Below, piece by piece: positions 2,861 through 27,748 of a stretch of 50,389 nucleotides of DNA. The stretch comes from Yoonia sp. (GTDB lineage: Bacteria; Pseudomonadota; Alphaproteobacteria; Rhodobacterales; Rhodobacteraceae). The notes under the pieces were generated by a model that did no database searches, had not been told where the DNA came from, and was given only the letters and a program-made list of their open reading frames with translations. The translations under genes and the position numbers were made by a program. The stretch is taken from assembly GCF_030731595.1 (NCBI RefSeq), contig NZ_JANQTS010000050.1:1-50389 (forward strand), in the 5' to 3' direction. The first letter of the stretch is position 1. Every line of letters begins with the position of its first letter.

Positions 2861-4870
2861 CTAGATCATGTCACGTGGAATGCGGTCATGCCAGTCTCGC
2901 GCAAAGACTTCTTGTCCGTTTTCTGACAGGCGCACCTGCATCTGGACGATGAAATGCGTCGCGTCACAGGTCAGGCTGCCGGTCGAGTGGTGCAGGATCG
3001 TGGTATCCTTGCGCCGGATTTCAACGCGGTTGTCCGTATAGGTCGCAGCACTCAACGGATCGCCTTCGGTGATTTCATGGCGGCAAGTACCGGTCGAGAT
3101 TTGGGTCTGTTCGATATCCGTCATCTCCATCGCGTAAGTCCAGCGCGGGAAATCCACGACGATCGTGCCATTCAGCAGGTCGCGGGTGATGCGTCGACGG
3201 TTTGTGGCAGGGCTGGAGTGATGCACAACGGGCGTTTGGGCGGCCTCTTCGGGCGGATCGAAGGGGCGTAGCGTGTCATCCTCGGGACGTGGGGGACGTA
3301 TCGGCAGTTGGAGTTCGGACGCGCCGCAATGGATCGTCAAGGTCACCAGTTCGGGGGAAGGCCAGACCAGTGGGTAATAAACCGTCGACAAGGCCACAGC
3401 GATCCGGTGCCCAGCGGGGAAGTGATGTGCGATGTCATCCATTTCGACGACAGCGTCATAGTCCTGCCCCGGTTCAAGGGGGGTCGGGTGTTCATGGCTG
3501 TCCCGATGGGTCAGGTTCAGCAGGCCAAGGCCCACGCGCGTCGTACTGCCATCTGGCCGGACATCGTTTAGCCGGGCCGAGACCAGCGCCAAGGGCTTGT
3601 CAGAGCAAAAGCGCAAAGCAATCCGCGGTGCGCCAAGGATCTCGACGGCCTCGGGTAGCGGGTCCGACAGAAAAACCAGACTGCCGCCATCGTCTTCGCG
3701 CTGGTCGCCGGGCCAATCCGCATCTTCGCCATAGCGCCCGACTTCGCCGGAATTCATGCCAACCCACAAGGGCGAGCATATGCTGCGCGTCCCTGCGGTG
3801 TCACTGAACCGCCCGTCCGCGCCAAGCGGCAGGCGTCGCATCGTGATCCGGGGCGAAGGCCAGCTGTCCTCGGCGACCCAGCGCCCCGGACGGGTGCGGT
3901 AGCAGGTCGCCGGTGGCACGCTGTCCTGCATCCAGACGCGATACATCGGCTCTTGCATGATGCCGGTGTCACGCCCCTTCATCCAGTGATCGCACCAGCG
4001 CACGACCTCTTGCAGCCAGCCGATCGCGGGTTCCACGGTCACGTCATGCGGGTAGGAATGCGCCCAAGGTCCGATCAGCCCGCGCCGTGGCACGCTCAGA
4101 CCGGCAAGCAGGCGCGGAACGCTTTCGGAATAATTGTCCGCCCAGCCCGACACCGCGTAGACGGGAACCTTGATCGCGCTGAAGTTCTCGCAGACCGACC
4201 CTTGTTTCCAGAAATCATCGCGCCGCTGGTGGTGCAGCCAATCGGTGATCCATGGCCGTTGATGCGCCATCCGCGCCTGCCACATCGCGCGCCAGTTCTC
4301 GCCCACGACATCGGGATCAGGGGGCAGGTCGTTGGTGGCCATCATCGTGGCCGACCAGTCAAAGTTATCCTTGCTTAAGCAGCCGCCAATCCAGTGGATG
4401 TCGGTGGCATAGCGGTCGTCGGTGGACCCCACGGTGATGATCGTCTTGAGCGCGTCAGGCTGCCGTGCCGCGATCTGCAAACCGTTGAAACCGCCCCAGG
4501 AGATGCCGATCATCGCCACCTGACCGTCGCACCAGTCCTGTGCGGCCAGCCATGCGATGGCGTCGCATCCGTCCAACTGCTCTTGCACGGTATATTCGTC
4601 GTCGATCAGGCCTTCGCTGTCTCCCGATCCTCTGATGTCGAGCCTGACGCAGGCATAGCCATGTCCTGCAAGATATGCGTGCATCCCCTGATCGCGGTAA
4701 CGCGTCCCGTCGCGCTTGCGGTAGGGCAGGTATTCCAGAATGGCAGGCACGGGGCCTGCGCCTTTTGGACGCCACAGCTTGGCGGCCAGCCGTGTCCCGT
4801 CGGGGAGCGGAACAAAAATGTTTTCGATCACTTCCACAGGATAGGGAAAATCAGTTCTGACGTTTGGCAT
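2861..4870 (-). CDS. CocE/NonD-type alpha/beta hydrolase (X-Pro dipeptidyl-peptidase S15 family)
   Basis: A 669-residue protein with the CocE/NonD layout: an N-terminal alpha/beta-hydrolase domain with nucleophile Ser124 in GISWGG, a probable catalytic Asp in VSGWADN and His in GPWAHSYPHD, then a C-terminal jelly-roll domain (X-Pro dipeptidyl-peptidase C-terminal type). Relatives hydrolyse esters, glutaryl-amides or Xaa-Pro peptides. There is no signal peptide, so it acts in the cytoplasm. The ATG at 4870 is preferred over an upstream in-frame start at 5011 because GAGGTG lies just upstream, family homology begins there, and the longer form would overlap the divergent flavoprotein. A promoter with the shared 16-bp element sits 19 bp upstream. 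With a prolyl-oligopeptidase and a peptide importer in the same locus, a role in trimming an imported amide or peptide is likely. Confidence 0.9.
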   Translation of the reverse strand: MPNVRTDFPYPVEVIENIFVPLPDGTRLAAKLWRPKGAGPVPAILEYLPYRKRDGTRYRDQGMHAYLAGHGYACVRLDIRGSGDSEGLIDDEYTVQEQLDGCDAIAWLAAQDWCDGQVAMIGISWGGFNGLQIAARQPDALKTIITVGSTDDRYATDIHWIGGCLSKDNFDWSATMMATNDLPPDPDVVGENWRAMWQARMAHQRPWITDWLHHQRRDDFWKQGSVCENFSAIKVPVYAVSGWADNYSESVPRLLAGLSVPRRGLIGPWAHSYPHDVTVEPAIGWLQEVVRWCDHWMKGRDTGIMQEPMYRVWMQDSVPPATCYRTRPGRWVAEDSWPSPRITMRRLPLGADGRFSDTAGTRSICSPLWVGMNSGEVGRYGEDADWPGDQREDDGGSLVFLSDPLPEAVEILGAPRIALRFCSDKPLALVSARLNDVRPDGSTTRVGLGLLNLTHRDSHEHPTPLEPGQDYDAVVEMDDIAHHFPAGHRIAVALSTVYYPLVWPSPELVTLTIHCGASELQLPIRPPRPEDDTLRPFDPPEEAAQTPVVHHSSPATNRRRITRDLLNGTIVVDFPRWTYAMEMTDIEQTQISTGTCRHEITEGDPLSAATYTDNRVEIRRKDTTILHHSTGSLTCDATHFIVQMQVRLSENGQEVFARDWHDRIPRDMI

Positions 4871-4888
4871 CGCGACACCTCGCTGTTG

Positions 4889-4923
4889 TTGGACGACTGT
4901 ACAATATGGGCCTTTTGGCGCAA
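4889..4923 (-). promoter_or_regulatory. Predicted promoter with 16-bp operator-like element (hydrolase/flavoprotein divergent region)
   Basis: On the minus strand TTGCGC (4923-4918), a 16-nt spacer and TACAGT (4901-4896) form a sigma70-like promoter about 20 nt upstream of the CocE-type gene. Overlapping the -10 is the 16-mer TTGGACGACTGTACAA (plus strand, 4889-4904), whose ends form the dyad TTGGAC/GTACAA. The same 16-mer with two changes overlaps the -10 of the importer operon at 22477-22492 in the same register. The divergent flavoprotein operon begins 97 bp away on the plus strand and could share control. Basis: seen in the sequence; the regulator is inferred. Confidence 0.55.
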
Positions 4924-4988
4924 CGCCGATGTTGCCCTGTTTCGATTGACGCAGCCTCTTTGCGCAGCTTATGATATGTTTATTCAAC

Positions 4989-5001
4989 AAGGAGACTGTC
5001 T
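4989..5001 (+). promoter_or_regulatory. Ribosome-binding site that decides a TTG start
   Basis: AAGGAG at 4989-4994, a six-nucleotide spacer and TTG at 5001 form a near-ideal initiation site. The upstream in-frame ATG at 4971 has no such site, and the ten extra residues it would add (MICLFNKETV) do not resemble the family N-terminus. Confidence 0.7.
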
Positions 5002-7064
5002 TGGCCCGCAATCCCCAGTACGATCCGTTGTTTCAGCCGCTCAAGATCGGGCCCAAAACCACAAAGAACCGCTTTTTTCAGGTGCCACACGCCAGTGGCA
5101 TGACCAATGCGGCCCCGCATGTGCGTGCGGCCTTTCGCGGGATGAAGGCAGAAGGGGGCTGGGGCGTGGTCTGCACCGGAGCGGCCTCGGTCGATCCGTC
5201 TTCTGACGACAGCCCGTTTCCTTGCGCCACGATCTGGGATGATGCGGACATCCGCGCCCACGCCCTGATGACCGATGCTGTCCATGCCCATGGGGCCCTT
5301 GCGGGGATCGAACTTTGGCACGGCGGGGCTGCATCGGTGAACCGGACCAGCCGGATTGCACCTCTCAGCCCTTCCGGCGTGCCTTGGATGCCGACCCATG
5401 TGGGGTTCATGTCCGCGCAACGCCCAAAGATCATGGATGCAGAGGATATTCGCGCCTTGATCCAATGGCATGCCGATGCGGCGGTGCGGGCCGAACAGGC
5501 CGGTTTTGATATTCTCTATGTCTATGCCGGTATGGGTTATCTGCCCTATCAGTTCTTGCTGCCCGACTATAATCACCGCACCGATGCCTATGGCGGATCG
5601 GTCCGCAATCGCGTGCGTCTGGTCGAGGAATTGCTGGACGCCGTGCGCGAAGCGACACACGGGCGCTGTGCCGTGGCGCTGCGGATGTCGATGCAGGAAC
5701 TGCGCGCGCGACCCTCCGAAGTGGCCGAAAGCGAGGCGCATGAGGTGGTTGGCCTGCTCAAGGACGCCCCTGATCTGTTCGACGTCAAGATGGACTATTC
5801 CGCCTATGACTGCGCGCCGTCGCGGTTCGCCGCCGAAGGCAGCCACGAGCCGGTGATCGACTTTATGAAATCCGTCACGGACAAGCCCGTGGTCGGGGTG
5901 GGGCGGTTCACATCGCCCGATACCATGGTGGGCATGATCCGTCGCGGCGTGCTTGACCTGATCGGTGGCGCGCGCCCCTCGATCGCTGATCCGTTTCTGC
6001 CCCAAAAGATCGACGAAGGCCGCGAGGAAGATATCCGCGAATGTATCGGCTGCAATATGTGCATCGCCTCGTGGCATGACGGTGTCTGGGTGCGCTGTAC
6101 GCAAAACCCGACGGCGGGCGAAGAATGGCGGCGCGACTGGCATCCCGAGGTCGTCACGCGGGATCGCGCGGGGCAGGTGCTGATCGTCGGCGGCGGGCCT
6201 GCGGGGCTGGAGGCAGCATTGACCGCAGCACGGCGCGGTTTTGATGTGGCCTTGGCCGAGGCACGGGACGATTTTGGCGGGCGGCTCTTGTTCGAAAGCG
6301 CGCTGCCCGGTCTGCGGGCATGGATGCGTGTGGCCGAATACCGTCTGGGCCAGTTGCGCAAGCTGCCCCATGTGTCGCTCTATCCGGCCAGCCCGATGAC
6401 CGACGCGGATGTGCGCGATTTCGGCGCCGATCACGTCATTGTCGCCACGGGCGCACGCTGGACCACACGGCTTTGCGGGGCCAACGAACTGCCGGTTGCG
6501 GGACTGGAGGCGCCACGCATCCTCACACCTGATGATCTGGCGCGGGGCCAAGTCCCTGAAGGGCCGGTCGCTGTCTTTGACTTTGACAATTACTATCTGG
6601 GGACGGCCATTGCCGAACATCTGGCCACGCTTGGCTTGCAAACCACCTATATCACGACGGGTGGTGCCGCTGGCGCATGGGGCATCATGACCAACGAGCA
6701 ACCGGGTATGCATCAGGCGCTTGAACGGTTGGGTGTCGCCTTGCGCACAAGTGAAATCGTGACCGGCTTTGACGGGGTCACACTGGACCTGGCCCATGTG
6801 TTTTCAGGGGCGGCGCGGCAGATCGCGGCCCGCAGTCTTGTGATCGTGGGTCAACGGGCAGGGGGTAGCGCGCTCTTTGACAGTCTGGCAGGGGGCAGAG
6901 ATGACAGCTTCTCCCTTTCTGTCACCGGTGACGCGCGCGCGCCCGGTGCCTTGGTGCATGCGGTCTATCAGGCGCATGAGACAGCCCGCGGCCTTGATCT
7001 GGCCCCGTCCAATGCCGCGCTGCGCCGCGACGGGCCTGTCCCGCTGACCGAGCCTGTGACGTGA
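5001..7064 (+). CDS. Trimethylamine-dehydrogenase/DgcA-like Fe-S flavoprotein (N-demethylase candidate)
   Basis: A 687-residue protein with the three-part layout of trimethylamine dehydrogenase, 2,4-dienoyl-CoA reductase, DgcA and stachydrine demethylase. Residues 1-340 are an old-yellow-enzyme-like FMN barrel (starting YDPLFQPLKIGPKTTKNRF), followed by a [4Fe-4S] motif with Cys348, Cys351, Cys354 and Cys366, then an FAD/NAD-binding part starting VLIVGGGPAGLEA near residue 393. Family members oxidatively remove N-methyl groups or reduce enoyl-CoA; N-methyl oxidation is favoured here because an MttB-family methyltransferase follows with a 4-nt overlap. Translation most likely starts at TTG 5001. 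It is the first gene of a six-gene operon ending at 12437. The true substrate (tertiary amine, N-methylated amino acid) cannot be read from the sequence. Confidence 0.88.
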   Translation: MARNPQYDPLFQPLKIGPKTTKNRFFQVPHASGMTNAAPHVRAAFRGMKAEGGWGVVCTGAASVDPSSDDSPFPCATIWDDADIRAHALMTDAVHAHGALAGIELWHGGAASVNRTSRIAPLSPSGVPWMPTHVGFMSAQRPKIMDAEDIRALIQWHADAAVRAEQAGFDILYVYAGMGYLPYQFLLPDYNHRTDAYGGSVRNRVRLVEELLDAVREATHGRCAVALRMSMQELRARPSEVAESEAHEVVGLLKDAPDLFDVKMDYSAYDCAPSRFAAEGSHEPVIDFMKSVTDKPVVGVGRFTSPDTMVGMIRRGVLDLIGGARPSIADPFLPQKIDEGREEDIRECIGCNMCIASWHDGVWVRCTQNPTAGEEWRRDWHPEVVTRDRAGQVLIVGGGPAGLEAALTAARRGFDVALAEARDDFGGRLLFESALPGLRAWMRVAEYRLGQLRKLPHVSLYPASPMTDADVRDFGADHVIVATGARWTTRLCGANELPVAGLEAPRILTPDDLARGQVPEGPVAVFDFDNYYLGTAIAEHLATLGLQTTYITTGGAAGAWGIMTNEQPGMHQALERLGVALRTSEIVTGFDGVTLDLAHVFSGAARQIAARSLVIVGQRAGGSALFDSLAGGRDDSFSLSVTGDARAPGALVHAVYQAHETARGLDLAPSNAALRRDGPVPLTEPVT

Positions 7065-8575
7065 GGCGGGGCAAATCCCGCGAAGGGCGGATGATCGGCG
7101 TGGTGAACCAGCCGCCCTTTTCGCAACTCACCCGCCCCTATGATCCGGTAGCGGTGCTGAGTGATGATCAGGTCGCGATGATCCACCAGGCTGCGTTACG
7201 GGTCTTGGCAGAAATTGGGATGAAAGTGCTGCACCCCCCCGCGCGGGATCATTTCCGCGCGGCAGGGGCAACGGTCCAAGGCGATATGGTGCAGTTCGAT
7301 CCCGATCTGATCCCCCGGCTTATTCAGACCGTGCCACGGCATTTCACGCTGGAAGCCCGCAATCCGGCCCGCAACCTGCGGCTTGGCGGGCGCGATCTGA
7401 TTTTCGGCGCGGTGGGCGGGCCCGCTTATGTGATGGACAACGACCGTGGCAAGCGTGACGGCACCTTTGCCGAGATGTGCGACTACATGCGCGTCATTCA
7501 AAGCCTGAACATCCTGCACCAAGAGGGCGGCGGACCCTTTGAGCCGATGGACCTGCCCGCCGCAACGCGGCATCTGGATATCTTTCGGGCGCAGATCACC
7601 CTGCTGGACAAGAACTGGCAAACCCAGACGCTCGGTCATGCGCGCACGATGGACGGAATCGCACTTGCCGCGCTTGCGCTGGGCACCACCCCTGACGGGC
7701 TGAAGGACAGGCCGACGCTTTTGGGGATCATCAATACCAATTCGCCGTTGCAGCTTGATATCCCGATGGCCGAAGGGCTGATCTGTCTGGCGACCTATGG
7801 TCAGGTCAATGTGATCACGCCTTTCACGCTGGCGGGGGCGATGTCGCCTGTGACTTTGGCGGGCACGCTCGTCCAGCAACATGCAGAAGCTTTGGCAGGC
7901 ATTGCCCTGACCCAGATCGTCAGGCCCGGTGTCCCGGTGATGTATGGTGGTTTCAGCTCTAACGTGGATATGCGCTCGGGTGCGCCTGCCTTTGGCACGC
8001 CCGAATACGTCAAGGCGGCACAGGCCAGCGGGCAACTGGCCCGCTCTATCGGTGTGCCTTTCCGGTCGTCGAATGTGACCGCTGCGAACGAGGTCGATGC
8101 ACAGGCGGCATACGAATCGCAGATGTCACTTTGGGGGGCCTGCATGGGCGGGGCGCATCTGGTCAATCATGCCGCGGGCTGGATGCATGGCGGGCTGACG
8201 GCCAGTTTTGAAAAGCTGATCCTTGATGCCGAACTGTTGCAGATGATGGCGGCCTATTTCGACCCCATCGTGGTGACGCCCGATACCTTGGCGGTCGACG
8301 CGATTCGTGCGGTCGGGCCTGCCGGCCATTTCTTTGGCGCGGACCACACGATGAGTCGCTATGAGACCGCATTCTACACACCGCTTTTGTCGAATTGGGA
8401 CAACCACGGACAGTGGCTTGAAAACGGGGGTATCACCGCACGAGAACGGGCCAATGGGGTCTGGAAACAGCTCCTTGCCGATTACGAGCAACCCCCGCTT
8501 GATCCTGCGCGGCTTGAGGCCATCGACGCCTATATCACCCGCCGCAAAGCCGAAGGCGGCGCGCCGATGAATTGA
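7061..8575 (+). CDS. MttB-family (trimethylamine:corrinoid-like) methyltransferase, non-pyrrolysine
   Basis: About 504 residues of the MttB superfamily, with N-terminal VLSDDQVAMIHQAALRVLAEIGM and the glycine-rich core LAGAMSPVTLAGTLVQQHAE. The frame has no in-frame amber codon, so this is the non-pyrrolysine branch, whose studied members demethylate glycine betaine, proline betaine, carnitine or butyrobetaine and pass the methyl to a corrinoid protein. No corrinoid-protein or RamA-like gene is in the window, so the methyl acceptor is an open question. The GTG at 7061 overlaps the previous stop (GTGA) but lacks a good ribosome-binding site; ATG 7091, preceded by GAAGGG, would give 494 residues. 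The pairing with a TMA-dehydrogenase-like enzyme suggests two successive N-demethylation steps (inference). Confidence 0.9.
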   Translation: MRRGKSREGRMIGVVNQPPFSQLTRPYDPVAVLSDDQVAMIHQAALRVLAEIGMKVLHPPARDHFRAAGATVQGDMVQFDPDLIPRLIQTVPRHFTLEARNPARNLRLGGRDLIFGAVGGPAYVMDNDRGKRDGTFAEMCDYMRVIQSLNILHQEGGGPFEPMDLPAATRHLDIFRAQITLLDKNWQTQTLGHARTMDGIALAALALGTTPDGLKDRPTLLGIINTNSPLQLDIPMAEGLICLATYGQVNVITPFTLAGAMSPVTLAGTLVQQHAEALAGIALTQIVRPGVPVMYGGFSSNVDMRSGAPAFGTPEYVKAAQASGQLARSIGVPFRSSNVTAANEVDAQAAYESQMSLWGACMGGAHLVNHAAGWMHGGLTASFEKLILDAELLQMMAAYFDPIVVTPDTLAVDAIRAVGPAGHFFGADHTMSRYETAFYTPLLSNWDNHGQWLENGGITARERANGVWKQLLADYEQPPLDPARLEAIDAYITRRKAEGGAPMN

Positions 8576-8663
8576 CCGCGCGACAACGGTCCCCGTTCAG
8601 GAGGCCCCTTCTCAAACGTCCTTTGTCATGCAACTCTTGACCATCCGTGGAGAATTCAGCGCC

Positions 8664-10022
8664 ATGTCACCCGATACCCTGCGCAACAGACCATCCTACC
8701 TGTTCTACCAGACCGAGCACCCCCGACCGATGCTGGACAGGGCCGAAGGCATTTACATGTGGGACACCCAAGGGCGGCGGTTCATTGATGGATCGTCCGG
8801 GGCGATGGTCTGCAATATCGGCCACAGCAATCCTGCCGTGCTGGAAGCGATGCGCGCCCAGATGGACAAGTCGACCTTTGGCTACCGCCTGCATTTTGTC
8901 ACCGAAGCCTCTGAAGCGCTGGCCGAGCGCACGGTCGAACTGGTCTGGCCCGGCATGAACCGCGTGTTCTTTGTCTCGGGCGGATCAGAGGCCGTGGAAT
9001 CGGCGATGAAGCTTGCCCGCGCCTATGCGGTGGCGGTGGGAGAGGGGAGCCGCTGGAAAGTGATCTCGCGCTGGCCGTCTTATCATGGCTGCACGCTGGG
9101 GGCGCTTTCGGTGACAGGCTATGACAGCCTGACCGATCCTTTCGCGCCGATGATGCAGGCCATGCCCAAGGTGCCTGCACCGCGTGCATGGCTGGACGGT
9201 CTGGACCCAGCCGATCCGGCCACCGGAGCGCATTACGCCGACATGCTGGAGGCGGCGATCCTGGCCGAAGGGCCGGACACGGTTCTTGCCTTCCTACTCG
9301 AGCCGATTGGCGGTGCCTCGACAGGGGCGCTTGTCCCGCCTGCGGGGTATATGGAGGCCGTCCGCGACATCTGCACCCGTCACGGCGTGCTCTTGATCCA
9401 TGACGAGGTGATGTCGGGTGGCGGTCGCACAGGGCGCTTTCTGGGCGGGCAGCATTGGGCAGGCGCACCCGATATTCTGGCGTTGTCCAAGGGTTTCGGG
9501 GCGGGCTACATCCCCCTTGGTGCCATTGTCGCACGCGGCGAGATTGTCGAGGCGGTGATGGCCAAAGGCGGCTTTGCCCATGGCTTTACCTATGCAGGCA
9601 ATCCGCTGGCCTGCGCGACGGGTCTTGCGGTGCTGGATGAAATCATCCGGCAGGACATGATGCGCAATGCTCAAGTCGTGGGTGACCACCTCAAGCGTGG
9701 TCTGGTGGGACTGATGGACCGGTTTCCCTTCATCGGCGATGTGCGCGGCATGGGTCTGCTGCTGGCGATCGAGCTTGTCTCCGACCGTATCACACGCGCG
9801 CCTTTGCCACCGGCGATGAAAGCCTACGACCGCCTGACCGAGGCCGCCTATGCCCTTGGCCTGATCGTCTATCCGCGCCGGTCCCGGGGTGGATACGAGG
9901 GGGATCACATCCTGATTGCCCCCCCGATGATCACCACGATCGAACAGGCCGACGAGATCGTGGCGCTACTGACCGACGCGCTGACGGCCTTTGCCATCGC
10001 ATCCGAATTGCCGCTGTCATGA
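8664..10022 (+). CDS. Class III PLP-dependent aminotransferase
   Basis: A 452-residue fold-type I aminotransferase of class III. Visible are the substrate-entry segment DGSSGAMVCNIGHSNP, the PLP-phosphate stretch FVSGGSEAVESAMKLAR, the cofactor aspartate in LIHDEVMSGGGRTG and the Schiff-base Lys276 in ALSKGFGAGY. Class III enzymes typically transaminate omega- or beta-amino groups with pyruvate or 2-oxoglutarate. ATG 8664 (GGAGA about nine nt upstream) is preferred to ATG 8628, which adds 12 unlikely residues. An 88-bp gap separates it from the MttB-like gene, while the next gene overlaps by ATGA. In the proposed pathway it would convert an N6-acetyl-beta-lysine-like amine to the 3-keto acid that the adjacent BKACE cleaves; this is inferred from gene order. 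Confidence 0.9.
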   Translation: MSPDTLRNRPSYLFYQTEHPRPMLDRAEGIYMWDTQGRRFIDGSSGAMVCNIGHSNPAVLEAMRAQMDKSTFGYRLHFVTEASEALAERTVELVWPGMNRVFFVSGGSEAVESAMKLARAYAVAVGEGSRWKVISRWPSYHGCTLGALSVTGYDSLTDPFAPMMQAMPKVPAPRAWLDGLDPADPATGAHYADMLEAAILAEGPDTVLAFLLEPIGGASTGALVPPAGYMEAVRDICTRHGVLLIHDEVMSGGGRTGRFLGGQHWAGAPDILALSKGFGAGYIPLGAIVARGEIVEAVMAKGGFAHGFTYAGNPLACATGLAVLDEIIRQDMMRNAQVVGDHLKRGLVGLMDRFPFIGDVRGMGLLLAIELVSDRITRAPLPPAMKAYDRLTEAAYALGLIVYPRRSRGGYEGDHILIAPPMITTIEQADEIVALLTDALTAFAIASELPLS

Positions 10023-10945
10023 GCAAGATCCTGATCACCTGCGCCATCACCGGATCTATCCACGTGCCGTCGCAGTCGCCCTATCTGCCGATTACGGCCG
10101 CGCAGATCGCTGAACAGGCCATCGGGGCTGCTGAAGCGGGTGCCGCTATCTTGCATCTGCACGCGCGTGACCCTGCCACCGGACGCCCGTCATCGGACCC
10201 CGATCATTGGGCCGGTTTCCTGCCACAGATCGCTGTGGGTACCGATGCGGTTGTGAATATGACGACGGGTGGTTCGGCGGTCATGACGCTTGACCAGCGA
10301 CTGGCAGCACCCCGCGCTGTCGCACCCGAAATGTGCAGCCTGAACATGGGCACGATGAATTTCGCGCTTTATCCCATGATCCCCCGGATCAAGACTTTTT
10401 TGCATCCGTGGGAGAAACCCTTTCTGGAAGGCACGGACGATCTTGTCTTCAAGAATACGCCGCGCGATATCGCGCAGGTTCTCGACGAGATGGGGACGCA
10501 GCGCGGCGCAAGGTTCGAGTTCGAATGTTACGACCTGTCGCATCTGACCATGCTGCGCCATTTCGTGGATCGCGGATTGGTCAAGCCGCCCTATTTCATC
10601 CAGTTCGTCTTTGGCGTTCTGGGCGGGATGGCGGCCGAACCGGATACGCTGACCCATTTGGTGCGGACCGCCGACAGGCTTTTCGGCGATGACTATCTGT
10701 TTTCTGTCCTCGCAGCAGGCCGGATGCAAATCCCTATGGCAACGATGGCCGCCGCGATGGGCGGGCATGTCCGCGTGGGGCTCGAGGATAATCTATATCT
10801 GGACAAAGGGGTGCTGGCCCCGTCGAACGCTGCACAGGTGTCCCGGATCCGCACGATCGTCGAAGGGTTGGGACGCGAGGTGGCCACGCCTGCCGAGGCG
10901 CGCGCGATGCTCCACCTCAAGGGACGGGCGGGGGTGGGCGTTTGA
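10019..10945 (+). CDS. Beta-keto acid cleavage enzyme (BKACE, Kce family)
   Basis: A 308-residue zinc-dependent TIM-barrel enzyme of the BKACE family (formerly DUF849). The metal ligands are visible as the two His of HLHARDP and the Glu of RVGLEDNLYL; FEFECYD carries the family acidic residue. Known members condense a beta-keto acid with acetyl-CoA, giving acetoacetate and a shortened acyl-CoA; characterised substrates include 3-keto-5-aminohexanoate (lysine fermentation) and dehydrocarnitine. Specificity cannot be read from motifs, but the neighbours (aminotransferase before, acetyltransferase and deacetylase after) suggest a 3-keto-6-acetamidohexanoate-like substrate. ATGA overlap with the aminotransferase and TTGA overlap with the next gene imply coupled translation. 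Confidence 0.93.
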   Translation: MSKILITCAITGSIHVPSQSPYLPITAAQIAEQAIGAAEAGAAILHLHARDPATGRPSSDPDHWAGFLPQIAVGTDAVVNMTTGGSAVMTLDQRLAAPRAVAPEMCSLNMGTMNFALYPMIPRIKTFLHPWEKPFLEGTDDLVFKNTPRDIAQVLDEMGTQRGARFEFECYDLSHLTMLRHFVDRGLVKPPYFIQFVFGVLGGMAAEPDTLTHLVRTADRLFGDDYLFSVLAAGRMQIPMATMAAAMGGHVRVGLEDNLYLDKGVLAPSNAAQVSRIRTIVEGLGREVATPAEARAMLHLKGRAGVGV

Positions 10946-11424
10946 CCGTCGGCTATCGCAGGGCGGTCGCGGCGGACGTGGCGGCGATCCATGCGCTTTT
11001 GCAGCAGATGGCGGCCGAAGCGGGCCGCAGTATCGCGGGGTCTGACACGGCCCTGCGCAAGTACGGCTTTGGCCCTGAACCGCGGTTTCGGGCGGTTCTG
11101 GCCGAACGTGAAGGGCAAAGCATCGGGCTGGCGCTGGTCTTTCCCGAATACTCAAGCTGGCGTGGTGCCCTGGGGCTTTATGTGCAGGACCTTTATGTCC
11201 AGCCAGCGGCGCGGGGGCAGGGCGTGGCCTCTGCCTTGATCGGTGCGGCGCTCGCTTGCTGTGAGGACTGGGACCCCAGCTATGTGACGCTGATGGTGGA
11301 TCAAGACAACATCACGGCACAGGGCTGGTACGCCAGACAGGGTTTCGCCCTGCGCGAACGCGGCGATTTATTGATCCTTGACGGGGCAGCGCTGGCGCGT
11401 TTCGCGCGGAAAGTCAGCGCATGA
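10942..11424 (+). CDS. GNAT-family N-acetyltransferase
   Basis: A 160-residue GCN5-type acetyltransferase. Motif A, the acetyl-CoA pyrophosphate loop, is seen as VQPAARGQGVASALI (R/Q-x-x-G-x-A), preceded by LYVQDLYV, and the C-terminal NITAQGWYARQGFA is the usual motif B. It starts with TTG at 10942 inside a TTGA overlap with the BKACE stop, with a G-rich stretch just upstream as ribosome-binding site. It probably acetylates a small amine in the cytoplasm. In the beta-lysine route of Pseudomonas an acetyltransferase protects the omega-amine before transamination; the location of this gene between BKACE and a deacylase fits that role. Protein or antibiotic acetylation cannot be excluded. Confidence 0.87.
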   Translation: MTVGYRRAVAADVAAIHALLQQMAAEAGRSIAGSDTALRKYGFGPEPRFRAVLAEREGQSIGLALVFPEYSSWRGALGLYVQDLYVQPAARGQGVASALIGAALACCEDWDPSYVTLMVDQDNITAQGWYARQGFALRERGDLLILDGAALARFARKVSA

Positions 11425-12437
11425 TCGCAGTCTTTGATCCGCGTCAGGCGGCGCATGATCCGCAGTTCTTTCTGTCGTCCGGTGCGCCGCAGCCATGCCC
11501 GGAAAAGCCTGACCGGGCGCAAGCCTTGCTCGAGGCTGTCACGCAGCTTGGGCTGACCGTCAAGCAACCAACGGATCGGGGCGTGGCCCCAATCGAGGCC
11601 GTCCATCCCGAACGCTATTTGACTTTCCTGAAGAATATCCACCAGCGCTGGCAACGCATCGCAGGCGCCAGTGCCGAGGTCATCCCGAATATCCACCCCG
11701 ACCACCGGCTTGTGGGGTATCCCGCTTCGGCCGTCGGGCAGGCGGGCTATCATATGATGGATACGTCATGCCCCATCGGTCCCGCCACCTGGGAGGCGGC
11801 CTATGCCAGTGCGCAGACCGCCCTAGAGGCCGCCGATCTGGTGCGGTCTGGCGCACGCGCGGCCTATGCGCTGTGCCGTCCGCCCGGCCATCACGCCTTT
11901 GCCGAACTTGCGGGTGGCTTTTGCTATCTCAATAACAGCGCCATCGCAGCGCAAAGCCTGACAGGGCAGGGCGCGCGCGTGGCGATCCTGGATGTTGACC
12001 TGCATCACGGCAACGGCACCCAAGGCATATTCTACAGCCGTGGTGACGTTCTGACGGTGTCGATCCATGCGGATCCCGTCCGCTATTACCCGTTCTTCTG
12101 GGGCTATGCGACTGAAACGGGGGAAGGTGCGGGCGAAGGGGTCAACCTCAACCTGCCGCTGCCGCGCGGGACGGGCGATCACGGGTTTCTGGCGGCCTTG
12201 GATATGGCCCTTGGTCGTGTGGCGGATTTTGCGCCCACGCATCTGGTGCTTGCGCTGGGGCTTGATGCCTTCGAAGGCGATCCATTTGCGGGCCTTGCCG
12301 TGACCACGCAAGGATTTGCCCGGATCGGCCAAGCCATTGCGGCGCTCGGCTTGCCTGTGGTGATCGTGCAAGAGGGCGGGTATCTTTGCCCGGAACTCGG
12401 CCAGAACCTTGACGCGGTGTTGCGGGCCTTCCTTTAG
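11421..12437 (+). CDS. Acetylpolyamine amidohydrolase-like (HDAC superfamily) deacetylase
   Basis: A 338-residue zinc amidohydrolase of the arginase/deacetylase superfamily, the same length class as bacterial acetylpolyamine amidohydrolases. The catalytic pair His157-His158 lies in CRPPGHHA, zinc ligands Asp193 and His195 in ILDVDLHHGNGTQ, a further Asp in LALGLDAFEGDP, and the catalytic Tyr in VQEGGYL. These enzymes hydrolyse acetyl-amides of diamines and polyamines. In this operon it could remove the acetyl group from 4-acetamidobutyrate or its CoA ester after BKACE cleavage, releasing GABA, or act on an acylated starting compound. It begins inside an ATGA overlap with the GNAT gene, and its TAG stop overlaps the stop codon of the opposing dimethylformamidase-like gene. 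Confidence 0.9.
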   Translation: MIAVFDPRQAAHDPQFFLSSGAPQPCPEKPDRAQALLEAVTQLGLTVKQPTDRGVAPIEAVHPERYLTFLKNIHQRWQRIAGASAEVIPNIHPDHRLVGYPASAVGQAGYHMMDTSCPIGPATWEAAYASAQTALEAADLVRSGARAAYALCRPPGHHAFAELAGGFCYLNNSAIAAQSLTGQGARVAILDVDLHHGNGTQGIFYSRGDVLTVSIHADPVRYYPFFWGYATETGEGAGEGVNLNLPLPRGTGDHGFLAALDMALGRVADFAPTHLVLALGLDAFEGDPFAGLAVTTQGFARIGQAIAALGLPVVIVQEGGYLCPELGQNLDAVLRAFL

Positions 12438-14011
12438 CGCCAAGGCTGTAGCAAGACCCGTCGCGTGACCTCTTCCACCGGTTCATCAGCCGCGATCAGC
12501 CCTGCGACCCATTCGCAAGAGGCCGCGTTAAAGACCGCCCCTTTGCCGCGCCTGTATTCCGCGATGCAGCCGTTCCCCCGTGATGCCCTGCCCAGTGCCT
12601 CCGGATCGGTGCTGCCAAAGACCCGCAAGGCCAGATCCTCGGCATCGGCTGAACCAATGAAGCCGTCGGCGTCGTCCGGCCCTGTGGCATGGGCCAGCGT
12701 CGTCGCAGGCGACAAGGCGATGATCGTCAGATCACCGGCAAGTCCGGTTCCGTCTGCGGGAGAGGGCAGACCGTGGGTCATTGTATAGTCGATCCCGTCC
12801 ACCTCGTAGCCAAAGACCCGCGCGGCAGCGCCCAAGATATCGCCATAGCCCAGTCCGGTATCGCGCAAGGCCCAATGATCAGGGCGATAGACCGTGAAAC
12901 CGCCTGTGCCATGGGCGGCGCAGCGGCTCCAACCGGCATAGACCCCTGCGCTGCCGGTCAGCCCCATGGTTGCCACCGCAGGGCGCCCCACGGCGGGGTG
13001 ATCCCAATAGGAGGTCAGGTGCTGGGGGTCCGCGACATCATCCTCTGCTTCGGCGCGTGACTTGTGGCAGGTCTGGATGCTCAGATCGTCAGACAGGCGG
13101 GTTTGCCAAAAGAAATTGCCGGCAAAGCGCGCGAGTTCCCCACCTGCATCGACCCATGCGTCCAGATGGTCGCGCATGTTCCATGTCCAGTATTCATCAT
13201 GGCCGACAATGACGGCGCGGCGATAGGCGGCAAGGGCCGAAGGGTCATGGTGAAGATCATGCTGGGTGATGACATCGCAGGCGATGTCTTGCGCTGCGCA
13301 CCAGTGCATAAAGGGTCGCTCGAAGGCGGCCCAGCCGGAAGACGCGTATTTCTTTGAGACCCCTTCGGCGCGTGCGAATTCCATATGCGGATAGCGCGGT
13401 CTTGTCCGCAAAGGCGAGGCATGGGGGATGCGCGGTGCCGCCGAAGGCCATTGCGCGAACCCCGTGGCCCAAGGGCGGTGGAGCGATACATGCGCCGCAA
13501 ATTCATGACCCGAAGGCCCGCTAAGACCTTGATAGTGGTTCGACCCGCCCCAGTCGTTGTAGGCACACCAAGTGCCAGTACACAGGATCATCACCAAAGG
13601 CGCGGCCCGGTCCTTTGCCCGCAGTGCAAAGACATGCTCTGACCGATGCCCCGGCACATCGCAGGTGATGCGGTAAACACCCGACCGCCAATGATCGGGG
13701 ATCGTGATGGCCGCCCGCTGTGGCCAGTCGCAGCCGCGCATCGCGCAATCGGGTGGTGTGGGGGCAAAACCGCCGGGGATCGTGGAAGAAAGCACCGTGT
13801 CAGGGACCAGATCATCGCGCCAGATTGTGACAGCGATCTGGTCGGTATGGGAGATCGCATGCAGGCGCAGCACCTCGCCCGGCGCATAGCTGATCTTGTC
13901 GGTATAGGCCCAGACCTGCGGGCGGGCAGGGTCATCGGATGCGGTCTCGTAATAATGTCCGGTGACCGGATCGCCGTCATCCAGTGGTCCCGCGACGAAA
14001 AAGCCTTTCAC
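12434..14011 (-). CDS. N,N-dimethylformamidase large-subunit-like protein
   Basis: A 525-residue protein resembling the C-terminal region of the N,N-dimethylformamidase beta (large) subunit. A short N-terminal sandwich-like part (APGEVLRLHAISH, WRSGVYRI) is followed from about residue 130 by the glutamine-amidotransferase-like domain with TGTWCAYNDWGGSNHY and VIVGHDEYWTWNMRDHLDAWVDAGG. Dimethylformamidase releases dimethylamine from DMF and needs a small subunit, which is not visible in this window. Start is GTG 14011, overlapping the S9 peptidase stop (GTGA). It is the last gene of the importer operon. Amide hydrolysis that frees an N-methylated amine would feed the demethylases of the opposing operon; DMF itself need not be the substrate. 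Confidence 0.8.
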   Translation of the reverse strand: MKGFFVAGPLDDGDPVTGHYYETASDDPARPQVWAYTDKISYAPGEVLRLHAISHTDQIAVTIWRDDLVPDTVLSSTIPGGFAPTPPDCAMRGCDWPQRAAITIPDHWRSGVYRITCDVPGHRSEHVFALRAKDRAAPLVMILCTGTWCAYNDWGGSNHYQGLSGPSGHEFAAHVSLHRPWATGFAQWPSAAPRIPHASPLRTRPRYPHMEFARAEGVSKKYASSGWAAFERPFMHWCAAQDIACDVITQHDLHHDPSALAAYRRAVIVGHDEYWTWNMRDHLDAWVDAGGELARFAGNFFWQTRLSDDLSIQTCHKSRAEAEDDVADPQHLTSYWDHPAVGRPAVATMGLTGSAGVYAGWSRCAAHGTGGFTVYRPDHWALRDTGLGYGDILGAAARVFGYEVDGIDYTMTHGLPSPADGTGLAGDLTIIALSPATTLAHATGPDDADGFIGSADAEDLALRVFGSTDPEALGRASRGNGCIAEYRRGKGAVFNAASCEWVAGLIAADEPVEEVTRRVLLQPWR

Positions 14012-24817: not shown

Positions 24818-26206
24818 CTAGATCGTATGCAGATAGAGATCATAATCCACATCAGGGATCGTGCGGGCGACGCGCGCATATTCGGCGGCCTTCACGGCGG
24901 TAAAGGTACGGTGCATTTCTTCCCCCAAGGCATCCTTTAGGAAAGCTGATGCTTGGGCCGCAGCAATAGCCGCGTTCCAGTCTCGCGGCAGCGCGCGGCT
25001 TGTGTCCGCGTCATAGCCGTTGCCGGTGGTTTCCGGGCCGGGCTCAATCTGTTCGGTGATGCCTTTGCGCATGGCGGCCAGCACGGTGGCGGCGACCAGA
25101 TAGGGGTTGGCATCGACGCCGGACAGACGATGTTCGACCCGGCGGGCAGACCGCGCACCAGCGGGGACACGTACCGCGACAGAGCGGTTGTTGACGCCCC
25201 ACGTCGGCGCGACCGGCGCATAGCTTTGATTGGCAAAGCGGCGCCAGCTATTGGCGTGCGGGGCAAACACCAGCATACTTTCTCCCATTGTGGACAGCAT
25301 ACCGCCAATGGCGTGACGCAAGATGTCGGTCCAGCCCGCGTCCGGTTCTTCGGCCAGTCTGTTGTGGCCCGCCGCATCGCAAAGGCTCACGTGCAGGTGC
25401 ATGCCGGAACCGGCATAATCCGCAATCGGTTTTGCCATAAAGCAGGCGACCACACCGTGCCGTCGCGCCTGCGCGCGGACGATCCGTTTGAGCCGCACCA
25501 GATCGTCTGCGGCCTGCATGATGTCGGCGCGGTGGTGCAGCGTCAGTTCGTATTGCCCGGGCGCATATTCCGAAATCAGCGTTTCCACCTTGATCCCGGC
25601 CAGGGCTGCCCCCGCATAGATATCCGCAAAGAGCGGCTGCATACCGATCAGGTGGTCCACGGAATAGACTTCGGTCTTGCGCGATCTGCGTCCGTCCACG
25701 ACATCGCGCGCTGGCTGCACGCGGCCTGCGCTGTCGCGCTCTGGATCAAGCAGGAAAAACTCAAGCTCGAGCGCCGCGGTCGGGTGCAGACCAAGGGTCG
25801 CCATCGCATCGATCTGACGGCGCAGCGCATGGCGCGGGTCTGACAGCATCGGCGTGCCATCAAGATGGTACTGCGACAACAGCAGTTCGGCGCGCGGCGG
25901 CATCGTGCCATGCTGGGCCACCAGCGAGCCCGGCACAGGCCAGGCCCGCAGATCACCATCACCGGTGTCCCAGATCAGCCCGGTCTCGTCCACATCCTCG
26001 CCAACCACATCAAGGCCAAGGATCGAGATCGGCAAATGCCGCCCGCTCTTGTAAAGCGCTTCGAGTTCGTGGCGGCGGATAATCTTGCCGCGCCCGATCC
26101 CGTTGGAATCGAGCAAGACGATGTCGATGGCTTCAATCTGGGGGTGGGCCGCAAGGAAATCGGTGGCCTCTTGCAGGCTGGCGCCCGACGGGCAGGTATC
26201 AGGCAT
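24818..26206 (-). CDS. Glutamine-synthetase-family ligase (gamma-glutamyl-amine synthetase type)
   Basis: A 462-residue GlnA-fold protein with the N-terminal beta-grasp region (IDIVLLDSNGIGRGKIIRR) and the catalytic barrel; ALELEFFLLDP, PGQYELTLHH and GSGMHLHVSL contain the metal- and glutamate-binding residues, and VPAGARSARRVEHRLSGVDANPYL the Arg-rich ATP/glutamate site. The family joins glutamate to ammonia or to amines such as putrescine (PuuA). It ends with a short tail lacking the GlnA adenylylation motif. Its start overlaps the stop of the upstream aminomutase-type gene by 8 nt, so the pair is one transcription unit. Gamma-glutamylation of an amine whose amino group is then moved or oxidised is the likely theme; the exact amine is unknown. 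Confidence 0.9.
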   Translation of the reverse strand: MPDTCPSGASLQEATDFLAAHPQIEAIDIVLLDSNGIGRGKIIRRHELEALYKSGRHLPISILGLDVVGEDVDETGLIWDTGDGDLRAWPVPGSLVAQHGTMPPRAELLLSQYHLDGTPMLSDPRHALRRQIDAMATLGLHPTAALELEFFLLDPERDSAGRVQPARDVVDGRRSRKTEVYSVDHLIGMQPLFADIYAGAALAGIKVETLISEYAPGQYELTLHHRADIMQAADDLVRLKRIVRAQARRHGVVACFMAKPIADYAGSGMHLHVSLCDAAGHNRLAEEPDAGWTDILRHAIGGMLSTMGESMLVFAPHANSWRRFANQSYAPVAPTWGVNNRSVAVRVPAGARSARRVEHRLSGVDANPYLVAATVLAAMRKGITEQIEPGPETTGNGYDADTSRALPRDWNAAIAAAQASAFLKDALGEEMHRTFTAVKAAEYARVARTIPDVDYDLYLHTI

Positions 26207-27599
26207 GAATGGCTCCGTTAAGTTCTGTGATCACCGCTGTGAAGGCCGCGATCAACCTGTCGATTTGCCGGTCGGTGGTCACGGGGCTGACCAGCATCAT
26301 GTTGTGGAAAGGCGCGATCAGACAGCCGCGGTTCAGCAGGCCCAGATGCACGGCACCTTCCAGCGCCGGATGATGCGCCGCCGCTGCTTGGCTGCCATTG
26401 AGCAACGGCCCCGGGGCGCAGATGAATTCCACCCGCGCGCCCACGCGCACCACATGCCAAGGCAGCCCCGCCTGCGCAATCGCTGCGCGCAGTCCTTCGG
26501 CAAGACGCGCGGCACCGGTATTCATATGATCAAAGGCCTCGGGCGTTGCGACCTCTGACAAGGTCGCTTCCAGACAGGCGAACTGCATCGGGTTGCCGGC
26601 CAATGTGGTCCCCATGCCCGAATGCCCCGAGGGACGGGCCGCGTCATAGGTTTGGAACCGCTTTGCCACAGCATCTGTCATACCCCAAAGAGCCGTTGGC
26701 ATCCCGCCCGCCACGCATTTGCCGATCACAAAGATGTCGGGCGCAAGGCCGTGCTGGCCGGTATACCCGCCGTGCCTCGTCGATTGCGTGTGGGTTTCGT
26801 CAATAATCAACAGCGCACCATGCGCATCGGCCAGGGCGCGCAAGCCGTCCAGAAATCCCGGCTGCGGCAAGACCATGCAGGAATTTGTCATCACAGGTTC
26901 GGTCAGGATCGCAGCCACGTCGCCTTTGGACAAAGCGGCAGCAACCCCCTCCAGATCATTGAATTCAACGCAAACGGCCCCTTCAACAAGATCAAAGCCT
27001 TGCCCCACCAGACCTGCCCGCGCGACGGTCTGGCCTGCGTGCAGCTCTACCATCGTGTCCTCCAGCGTGCCGTGATAACAGCCGTTGAACACCAGAACCT
27101 TGCGTCGCCCTGTGATGGCACGGGCCACGCGCAAGGCATTGCGGTTTGCGTCTGTCGCGCTCAGCGTCATCTGCCAGATGAAATCGCCGAAATGCGCGGA
27201 CATCAGCGCCCCCGCCCGCAGCGCCGCTTTGGAGGGCAGCATATAGGTCAACCCACGCCGGGCCTGACGGCGGATGGCGCGGGCCACGGCGGGGGGCGCG
27301 TGACCGAACATTGATCCGGTATCCCCAAGGCAGAAATCATCCAGCCTGTGACCATCCAGATCCGTCAATCGCGCGCCTTTTGCCGTCTTCACAACCAAAG
27401 GAAAGGGTGAGGGCCAGTCGCGCATCCAGTGCATCGGCACCCCGTTCAGCCAAGGGGCCGCACCCGCATCAAGTGCGGCCCGGCTGCGGGGGCGCGCGGC
27501 CTCGAAACGGGCGGCTTCCTTGGCGCGGAAAGCCTCAAGCCGCTGTCCATGCACACCGGCCACGGTGGCCATTGCGAAATCAGGAGAAAGTGTTGACAT
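26199..27599 (-). CDS. Glutamate-1-semialdehyde-2,1-aminomutase-type class III aminotransferase
   Basis: A 466-residue PLP enzyme. The Schiff-base Lys lies in IFVIGKCVAGGMPTALWG, the cofactor Asp in LLIIDETHTQSTRHGG, and GDTGSMFGHAPPAV is the N-terminal substrate loop characteristic of the HemL-like branch. As HemL is normally a housekeeping gene with glycine-rich motifs close to E. coli GsaM, this divergent copy beside a glutamine-synthetase-like ligase is more likely a catabolic aminotransferase or aminomutase. ATG 27599 behind GGAG is preferred to the in-frame start at 27701. It is the first gene of the two-gene unit ending at 24818; I see no convincing promoter in the 149-bp upstream gap. 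Confidence 0.87.
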   Translation of the reverse strand: MSTLSPDFAMATVAGVHGQRLEAFRAKEAARFEAARPRSRAALDAGAAPWLNGVPMHWMRDWPSPFPLVVKTAKGARLTDLDGHRLDDFCLGDTGSMFGHAPPAVARAIRRQARRGLTYMLPSKAALRAGALMSAHFGDFIWQMTLSATDANRNALRVARAITGRRKVLVFNGCYHGTLEDTMVELHAGQTVARAGLVGQGFDLVEGAVCVEFNDLEGVAAALSKGDVAAILTEPVMTNSCMVLPQPGFLDGLRALADAHGALLIIDETHTQSTRHGGYTGQHGLAPDIFVIGKCVAGGMPTALWGMTDAVAKRFQTYDAARPSGHSGMGTTLAGNPMQFACLEATLSEVATPEAFDHMNTGAARLAEGLRAAIAQAGLPWHVVRVGARVEFICAPGPLLNGSQAAAAHHPALEGAVHLGLLNRGCLIAPFHNMMLVSPVTTDRQIDRLIAAFTAVITELNGAIHA

Positions 27600-27748
27600 A
27601 AAAGCTCCGAAAGGCGGTGCAACAACCCTATTCGCGTGCAACTGCCTTGCCAAGCATCTGGCGCATGTGCGGCGCGTCAAGGCGCGGACCACACCACACA
27701 AAGTCGCAGGCTTGGGATAGGGCAGGGCAGAGGGTGCCGCTTGTTAAA

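Follow-up and report, generated by a model that had tools for sequence, protein, structure and literature searches.

A four-gene block in Yoonia sp. as a candidate pathway for breaking down a beta-amino acid with a second amine

The four-gene block and its distribution

The window analyzed here is a 50,389 nt stretch of Yoonia sp. DNA (NCBI RefSeq assembly GCF_030731595.1, contig NZ_JANQTS010000050.1, positions 1 to 50,389). Between positions 8,664 and 12,437, it carries a compact block of four genes on the forward strand, encoding a class III aminotransferase (AT), a beta-keto acid cleavage enzyme (BKACE), a GNAT acetyltransferase, and a deacetylase with the histone deacetylase (HDAC) fold. 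On balance, we favor the view that this block serves the breakdown of a beta-amino acid carrying a second, distal amine, with beta-lysine (3,6-diaminohexanoate) as the leading candidate. The four genes are as follows.

8664..10022, forward strand: class III aminotransferase (AT), 452 aa, 48.5 kDa; PF00202, 304.7 bits
10019..10945, forward strand: BKACE; PF05853, 360.5 bits; NF053538, 481.5 bits against a cut-off of 430
10942..11424, forward strand: GNAT acetyltransferase, 160 aa, TTG start; PF00583, 48.7 bits
11421..12437, forward strand: HDAC-fold, acetylpolyamine amidohydrolase-like deacetylase, 338 aa, 35.75 kDa; PF00850, 250.9 bits

The Pfam scores of all four proteins (families Aminotran_3, BKACE, Acetyltransf_1, and Hist_deacetyl) were above gathering, and three 4-nt overlaps joined the genes, reading ATGA, TTGA, and ATGA in order. 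An earlier sequence-only reading had described four coupled genes with 4-nt overlaps, and the open reading frames (ORFs), junction letters, and Pfam matches bore this out. The ORF of the AT spans 8628-10022, the ATG at 8664 being the more likely start. Residues that we take to be catalytic from their families were read in each protein, namely K288 in the AT, H46, H48, and E256 in the BKACE, the RGQGVA motif in the GNAT, and H157, H158, D193, H195, D282, and Y321 in the HDAC-fold enzyme, the last six being unchanged across 22 aligned rows. The best PDB match of the HDAC-fold enzyme by sequence was 3men, an acetylpolyamine aminohydrolase; the enzyme belongs to the deacetylase family (PF00850) with an apparently intact active site, and the fold and metal site of acetylpolyamine amidohydrolases are predicted to be present. 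The window GNAT reached no NCBIfam cut-off, and the AblB model was not among its matches listed to an E-value of 10. We propose this protein as a candidate for masking the second amine.

The GNAT, as the least conserved member of the block, was used as the query in 198 genomes of the same family, the source genome included. It was matched in 33 of them, and 30 loci were returned, one of which was the window itself. AT, BKACE, and/or HDAC genes lay alongside the GNAT in 24 of the other 29 loci and were lacking in five; a locus with an AT match of only 29% (L030) was scored as a miss in this count. The statement of the sequence-only reading that the match of four activities exceeds chance was thereby supported. 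The block also occurred outside the family in the phylum sample, in other alphaproteobacterial families (genomes G811, G239, and G655 and several members of one family, f174). When an HDAC alignment was compared with 398 genomes of the phylum, 68 matched at an E-value of 1e-100; 30 loci were returned, own locus included, and 16 of these held an AT or BKACE of at least 50% identity within short flanks. Furthermore, the block was present on named plasmids of Shinella sp. PSBB067, Phyllobacterium zundukense, and Ensifer canadensis, the last of these records having no gene table. In the records of the first two, each gene had its own generic label (aspartate aminotransferase, 3-keto-5-aminohexanoate cleavage protein, GNAT, and histone deacetylase).

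Some relatives of the single proteins were set aside. GNAT relatives on plasmids of Rhizobium BT04 and Klebsiella aerogenes had unrelated surroundings, as did the GNAT matches at L052, L062, L063, L131, L135, and L142-L145. HDAC relatives on plasmids of Azospirillum, Comamonadaceae, Qingshengfaniella, and Paracoccus sat in other gene sets, and therefore the HDAC alone is not diagnostic of the block. In two f174 genomes (L137 and L138), genes for a formamidase-like protein, AT, GNAT, and HDAC were observed, with no BKACE within the fetched 20 kb.

Exchangeable back ends and the relation to a Bacillus operon

A total of 65 loci, picked by GNAT, HDAC, or deacylase matches and including close relatives, were tabulated. 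Of these, 38 held an AT with 50% or more identity to a block AT and are referred to here as AT loci. Thirty-one AT loci carried a BKACE and four (L047, L050, L129, and L264) carried both subunits of a 3-oxoacid CoA-transferase; none had both enzymes and three had neither. Similarly, an HDAC-fold enzyme was found in 29 and an ArgE/DapE deacylase in four (L047, L129, L130, and L264), with both in none and neither in five. The CoA-transferase subunits and the deacylase were identified by the NCBIfam models TIGR02429, TIGR02428, and PRK06837, all above cut-off. A GNAT was present in 36 of the 38 AT loci, a count favored by the mostly GNAT-based choice of loci, and a thiolase in two of the four CoA-transferase loci (L129, where it follows the deacylase, and L264).

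A beta-keto acid can be cut either by CoA-transferase plus thiolase or by BKACE, and ArgE/DapE and HDAC-fold enzymes are unrelated deacylases. The replacements would thus perform equivalent chemistry and therefore argue for an N-acylated beta-keto acid intermediate. This replacement is the strongest evidence for the proposed chemistry, and selection seems to have assembled the block to cleave an N-acylated beta-keto acid, as the sequence-only reading had proposed. In Rhodobacteraceae M382 (L264), an amino acid importer is followed by AT, CoA-transferase A, CoA-transferase B, ArgE/DapE, acetyl-CoA C-acyltransferase (thiolase), amidohydrolase, and alanine racemase. In Parasedimentitalea marina plasmid pW43C (L157), this frame recurs, except that BKACE and HDAC genes replace the four genes between AT and amidohydrolase and a LysR gene sits between importer and AT. 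The two loci differ in their back ends and share the importer, AT, amidohydrolase, and alanine racemase.

The constancy of the core also bears on the reading that the GNAT and the HDAC-fold enzyme act on polyamines brought in by a Pot-like importer, the AT and BKACE serving otherwise. Pot-like permeases lie upstream of the block in many relatives, and among solved structures the HDAC-fold enzyme is nearest to acetylpolyamine amidohydrolases. However, the core remained constant while importers were swapped (Pot-like, polar amino acid, branched-chain, and Opp), the deacylase was exchanged for the ArgE/DapE type, and the polyamine model PaiA, weak for two relatives (E-values of 0.025 and 0.28), was not listed for the window GNAT. 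We consider a polyamine module very unlikely.

The window BKACE had four NCBIfam matches, of which NF053538 (named for 3,5-dioxohexanoate) alone passed its cut-off, and no carnitine-type model was among the four. Its best PDB matches were 3e49, 3e02, and 8rio. According to PMC11961710, BKACE15 (PDB 8RIO), a close relative of the window BKACE, acts on neutral C5-C6 beta-keto acids; its activity was confirmed with beta-ketohexanoate, 3,5-dioxohexanoate, and two similar acids, and its genetic context was read as aromatic degradation. Judging from the family name, BKACE15 would itself fall within NF053538. If acetylated, 3-keto-6-aminohexanoate would be neutral at its amine end and so agrees with acetyl masking, whereas a carnitine-type or free-amine substrate would disagree with a BKACE of the neutral type. 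A dehydrocarnitine-type substrate, which the sequence-only reading had named as an outcome of subgroup comparison that would speak against it, was thus not indicated. Like Kce and BKACE15, the window BKACE has the PF05853 family and the catalytic residues; it reaches the NF053538 cut-off, and it is by membership in PF05853 and NF053538 that cleavage of a beta-keto acid with acetyl-CoA is assigned to it. In contrast, its neighbors (AT, GNAT, and HDAC) are unlike the lysine fermentation and aromatic contexts of Kce and BKACE15. The view that the BKACE acts on 3,5-dioxohexanoate or on aromatic-derived keto acids, with incidental neighbors, fits the NF053538 match and the context reported for BKACE15, but not the pairing of BKACE with AT in 31 of the 38 AT loci, with a CoA-transferase in four of the other seven; moreover, substrates used in vitro may stand in for the natural one. 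We regard this view as highly improbable.

The best NCBIfam matches of the window AT were PRK07483 and PRK06917, both below cut-off, and the same two models led for the AT of the B. subtilis kamA operon, which passed the PRK06917 cut-off only. The best solved-structure match of the window AT was 3i4j. In PMC6522883, the B. subtilis protein YodT is described as putative, with 3I4J as its closest structure at 39%, and both YodT and KamA as SigE-controlled. A maximum likelihood tree was built from 35 aminotransferases (three from Bacillus, 20 from blocks, and 12 ungrouped rows). The three Bacillus kamA-operon ATs were sister to the 20 block ATs with support of 97/94 and a small outgroup, and the four AT paralogues of the window genome fell apart from this clade. 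Pairwise identities and the tree, with its small outgroup, place the window AT in the YodT clade, and we propose it as a candidate N-acetyl-beta-amino acid transaminase resembling YodT. The CoA-transferase loci landed in two places within the BKACE loci; in the tree without one wrongly labeled row, well-supported branches force one back-end change and the best tree has two. An AT of the acetylornithine type in the aminomutase neighborhood of Deinococcus radiodurans fell outside the block clade and was rejected.

In plasmid records of B. velezensis and Cytobacillus spongiae, genes for an aspartate aminotransferase family protein, CoA-transferase A and B, a peptidase, ablB, and ablA stand in a row; a B. 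subtilis plasmid record has the first five, followed by an aminomutase-matching stretch without a listed gene. We take this row to be the kamA-yod operon (gene names YodT, YodS, YodR, YodQ, and YodP). Identities between block-variant genes and the Bacillus genes were 36-40% for the AT, 43-49% for ScoA, 46-48% for ScoB, and 33-36% for the ArgE deacylase, and block GNATs gave no match to Bacillus AblB at an E-value of 1e-3. The block is like the Bacillus kamA operon in its same-clade class III AT, acetyltransferase, deacylase, and a step activating the beta-keto acid. Unlike that operon, the window has no aminomutase match, a non-AblB GNAT, a BKACE rather than a CoA-transferase, and the HDAC fold rather than ArgE/DapE. 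The Bacillus-type pair of CoA-transferase and ArgE/DapE, not present in the window block, was found in the relatives L047, L129, and L264.

The proposed pathway and its substrate

In the proposed pathway, the GNAT would acetylate the distal amine of beta-lysine, and the AT, judging from its family and clade, would turn the 3-amino group into a 3-keto group, yielding 3-keto-6-acetamidohexanoate. The BKACE, by the reaction known for its family, would split this putative substrate with acetyl-CoA into acetoacetate and 4-acetamidobutyryl-CoA, and the HDAC-fold enzyme would strip the acetyl group, leading to 4-aminobutyrate (GABA). Some omega-transaminase and a succinate semialdehyde dehydrogenase could then convert GABA to succinate; a succinate semialdehyde dehydrogenase over cut-off was detected in the window genome. 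The acetyl group would keep the amine uncharged, in line with a BKACE that prefers neutral C5-C6 substrates, and the mask might also prevent cyclization. The substrate is probably imported in the window organism, because no aminomutase was found in its genome. It may enter in peptide or amide form, by way of the Opp importer, S9 peptidase, and formamidase-like enzyme encoded next to the block (see below).

Barker and co-workers reportedly worked out an acetylation route of beta-lysine in Pseudomonas. To our knowledge, this route is known from purified enzymes without assigned genes, and N6-acetyl-beta-lysine transaminase and 4-acetamidobutyryl-CoA deacetylase have EC numbers but no sequence. 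In family terms, the block is like the Pseudomonas route in combining acetyltransferase, transaminase, acetyl-CoA cleavage, and deacetylase; unlike that route, the alphaproteobacterial block is known from genes alone. No paper assigning these genes was found in a literature search that covered listings, the openings of abstracts, and selected passages, subscription papers being outside its scope. The new elements offered here are candidate genes and a possible second, exchangeable back end for a biochemically described route. If the proposal is correct, enzymes measured in vitro decades ago would gain candidate genes, a recurring block labeled gene by gene in plasmid records would be explained, a function would be suggested for Bacillus YodT, and one pathway would be seen to solve the same chemical steps with unrelated enzymes.

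Aminomutase-like genes were found near related operons in rhizobia. In Rhizobium sp. C104, a ScoA-ScoB-ArgE-thiolase-GNAT operon is preceded on the same strand by such a gene, which ends 435 nt before it and exceeds the cut-off of TIGR03822, a family of hypothetical function and not of proven lysine 2,3-aminomutases; in R. bangladeshense a like operon lies approximately 7 kb from an aminomutase-like gene with an ATP-grasp gene. ScoA, ScoB, and ArgE of the rhizobial operons shared 61-68% identity with those of L047, and the thiolase 62-64% with that of L129. As a separate observation, aminomutase-like and ATP-grasp genes recurred on rhizobial plasmids at distances of up to tens of kb from operons with CoA-transferase, deacylase, thiolase, and GNAT genes, as in L258 (NZ_CP071615.1, 62000-108000), L259 and L261 (S. 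meliloti ml46 pSymA), and L263; the TIGR03822 check covered S. meliloti and C104. The same regions carry Opp importers and peptidases, and one of the S. meliloti CoA-transferase copies is fragmented.

Several results weigh against the beta-lysine pathway. No match to lysine 2,3-aminomutase was found in the window genome (estimated to be 96.28% complete), no aminomutase over cut-off in 385 genomes of the class or 398 of the phylum, and no AT, BKACE, GNAT, or HDAC within the short flanks of 30 class and 23 phylum aminomutase loci. No GABA transaminase over cut-off was found in the window genome, the best match being the block AT itself at 215 bits. The sequence-only reading had called the gene set complete, which is too strong given that no enzyme making beta-lysine and no GABA transaminase at cut-off were found in this genome. 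Distal-amine acetylation of beta-lysine, as proposed for the block, would be a feature in common with the ablA-ablB osmolyte genes, which, according to PMC1224877, make and store N-epsilon-acetyl-beta-lysine; neither AblA nor AblB was matched in the window genome, nor does the GNAT belong to the AblB family. The outgroup of the AT tree is small (the 12 ungrouped rows only) and without the PRK07483 family, and three ATs of the rhizobial operons fell in a different class III branch near HemL. HemL-like beta-transaminases are known, for example, Kat, as described in PMC3149608.

The gene sets are also not uniform. Neither AT nor BKACE was nearby in 14 of the 30 HDAC loci from the phylum search, and four of the 16 with AT or BKACE (L204, L211, L220, and L221, each showing both) had no GNAT match. 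Among the 65 tabulated loci, six held BKACE, GNAT, and HDAC without AT (one of them, L064, on a short contig), and two held AT without GNAT. Both deacylases occurred together in L156 and L158, which lack a block AT, and L220 and L221 hold AT, BKACE, and HDAC plus the edge of an ArgE-like gene (40-44%). In addition, a homologue resembling the D-arginine dehydrogenase DauA adjoined the HDAC or lay downstream in seven of the 65 loci, and a DgcA/DgcN-like pair, below cut-off, was present in three (L054, L056, and L059); an alanine racemase lay by the block in L157 and L264. These three alternative D-amino-acid tools at the operon end are superfluous to the proposed route and are not accounted for by beta-lysine alone. 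The loci with the DauA-like homologue, with or without RidA, were L048, L051, L053, L057, L060, L061, and L127, and the homologue was also observed in L211, L213, L220, and L221 from the HDAC search.

These partners bear on the reading that the block performs the same chemistry on another omega-amino beta-amino acid, such as beta-ornithine or a 3,4-diamino acid, and releases beta-alanine or an alpha-amino acid. Nothing in the sequence fixes the chain length, and the downstream partners in relatives (DauA-like, some with RidA, DgcA/DgcN-like, and alanine racemase) act on alpha-amino acids and give the impression that either the product set free or a companion compound is a D-amino acid. On the other hand, the Bacillus operon, which includes a true lysine 2,3-aminomutase, offers the nearest full counterpart of the block, and a close relative of the BKACE takes neutral C5-C6 chains. 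We therefore hold a different substrate to be possible but doubtful, and retain beta-lysine as the leading candidate. With regard to the earlier claim of an acetylated beta-lysine route, the kind of chemistry is supported by the back-end replacement behind the same AT, whereas beta-lysine itself, linked indirectly by the AT clade and one rhizobial aminomutase-like neighbor, is unproven.

Flanking genes and accessory genes of relatives

The block is flanked in the window by the following genes.

2861..5011, reverse strand: CocE/NonD (X-Pro peptidase-like) hydrolase, divergent from the block; TIGR00976, 236.2 bits against a cut-off of 66.3
4971..7064, forward strand: flavin amine dehydrogenase of the trimethylamine/histamine dehydrogenase kind; best PDB matches 6l6j, 3k30, 6de6, and 1djq
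7061..8575, forward strand: MttB-family methyltransferase; PF06253, 625.6 bits; TIGR02369, 275 bits, below the cut-off of 525
12434..14011, reverse strand: N,N-dimethylformamidase-beta-like amidohydrolase, convergent with the block; PF20254, 221 bits
14008..15936, reverse strand: S9 prolyl-oligopeptidase-like peptidase; PF00326, 132.4 bits
15819..21192, reverse strand: Opp-type oligopeptide ABC importer with two ATPases, two permeases, and a binding protein

The flavin amine dehydrogenase gene overlaps the MttB gene by GTGA, and the latter ends 88 nt before the start of the AT; the dehydrogenase is perhaps on the same transcript as the block. TIGR02369, the model whose cut-off was not reached, is the pyrrolysine trimethylamine type. 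Both genes lie directly upstream on the same strand, which would suit a route in which they demethylate a methylated amino acid for the four enzymes, and the pair is kept in L035 and, divergently, in L037. Since these two loci and the window were the only ones of the 65 with the pair near the block, MttB and flavin dehydrogenase would be at most an addition in few species, and a methylated amine route is, in our judgment, very improbable. The CocE/NonD hydrolase was kept in L035 and L036.

Matches to the formamidase-like protein were found in 13 of the 65 loci; the gene lay upstream of the AT on the same strand in the f174 loci, and a match was present near the S. medicae operon. The window protein had no PDB sequence match, and it is a candidate amide hydrolase that would free the substrate. 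Proteins of this kind, approximately 525-550 aa long, were repeatedly observed near the module (L132-L134, L136-L138, L141, L231, and L262). A creatininase-like protein was present in three of the 65 loci. The true start of the S9 peptidase is probably near 15822, as judged from the overlap with the next ORF. The best NCBIfam matches of the Opp importer were to the OppD, OppC, OppA, and OppB families, all below cut-offs, the second ATPase being assigned by clustering only. Together, the formamidase-like and creatininase-like proteins and the S9 peptidase with the Opp importer suggest that the substrate is amide- or peptide-bound.

The rhizobial gene sets look as though synthesis and breakdown of a beta-amino acid compound were paired. 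A wider reading is that alphaproteobacteria trade beta-lysine as a nutrient, probably in a peptide- or amide-bound form; it would be made by the aminomutase-like and ATP-grasp genes of symbiotic plasmids and consumed by the module with its interchangeable back ends, importers, and amide hydrolases. We offer this tentatively and think it unlikely. If it were true, the window would represent the consumer side, its Opp importer, S9 peptidase, and formamidase-like enzyme serving to release beta-lysine.

Two further observations were made. In 38 loci on viral contigs (L161-L198, some contigs exceeding 200 kb) from the aminomutase alignment scan, relatives of lysine 2,3-aminomutase were present, the aminomutase being the sole query-gene match. 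Elsewhere in the window (24818-27701), a glutamine-synthetase-like gene, akin to type III and gamma-glutamylputrescine synthetases, lies beside a PRK07046 transaminase gene, and the same pair was found in L040.

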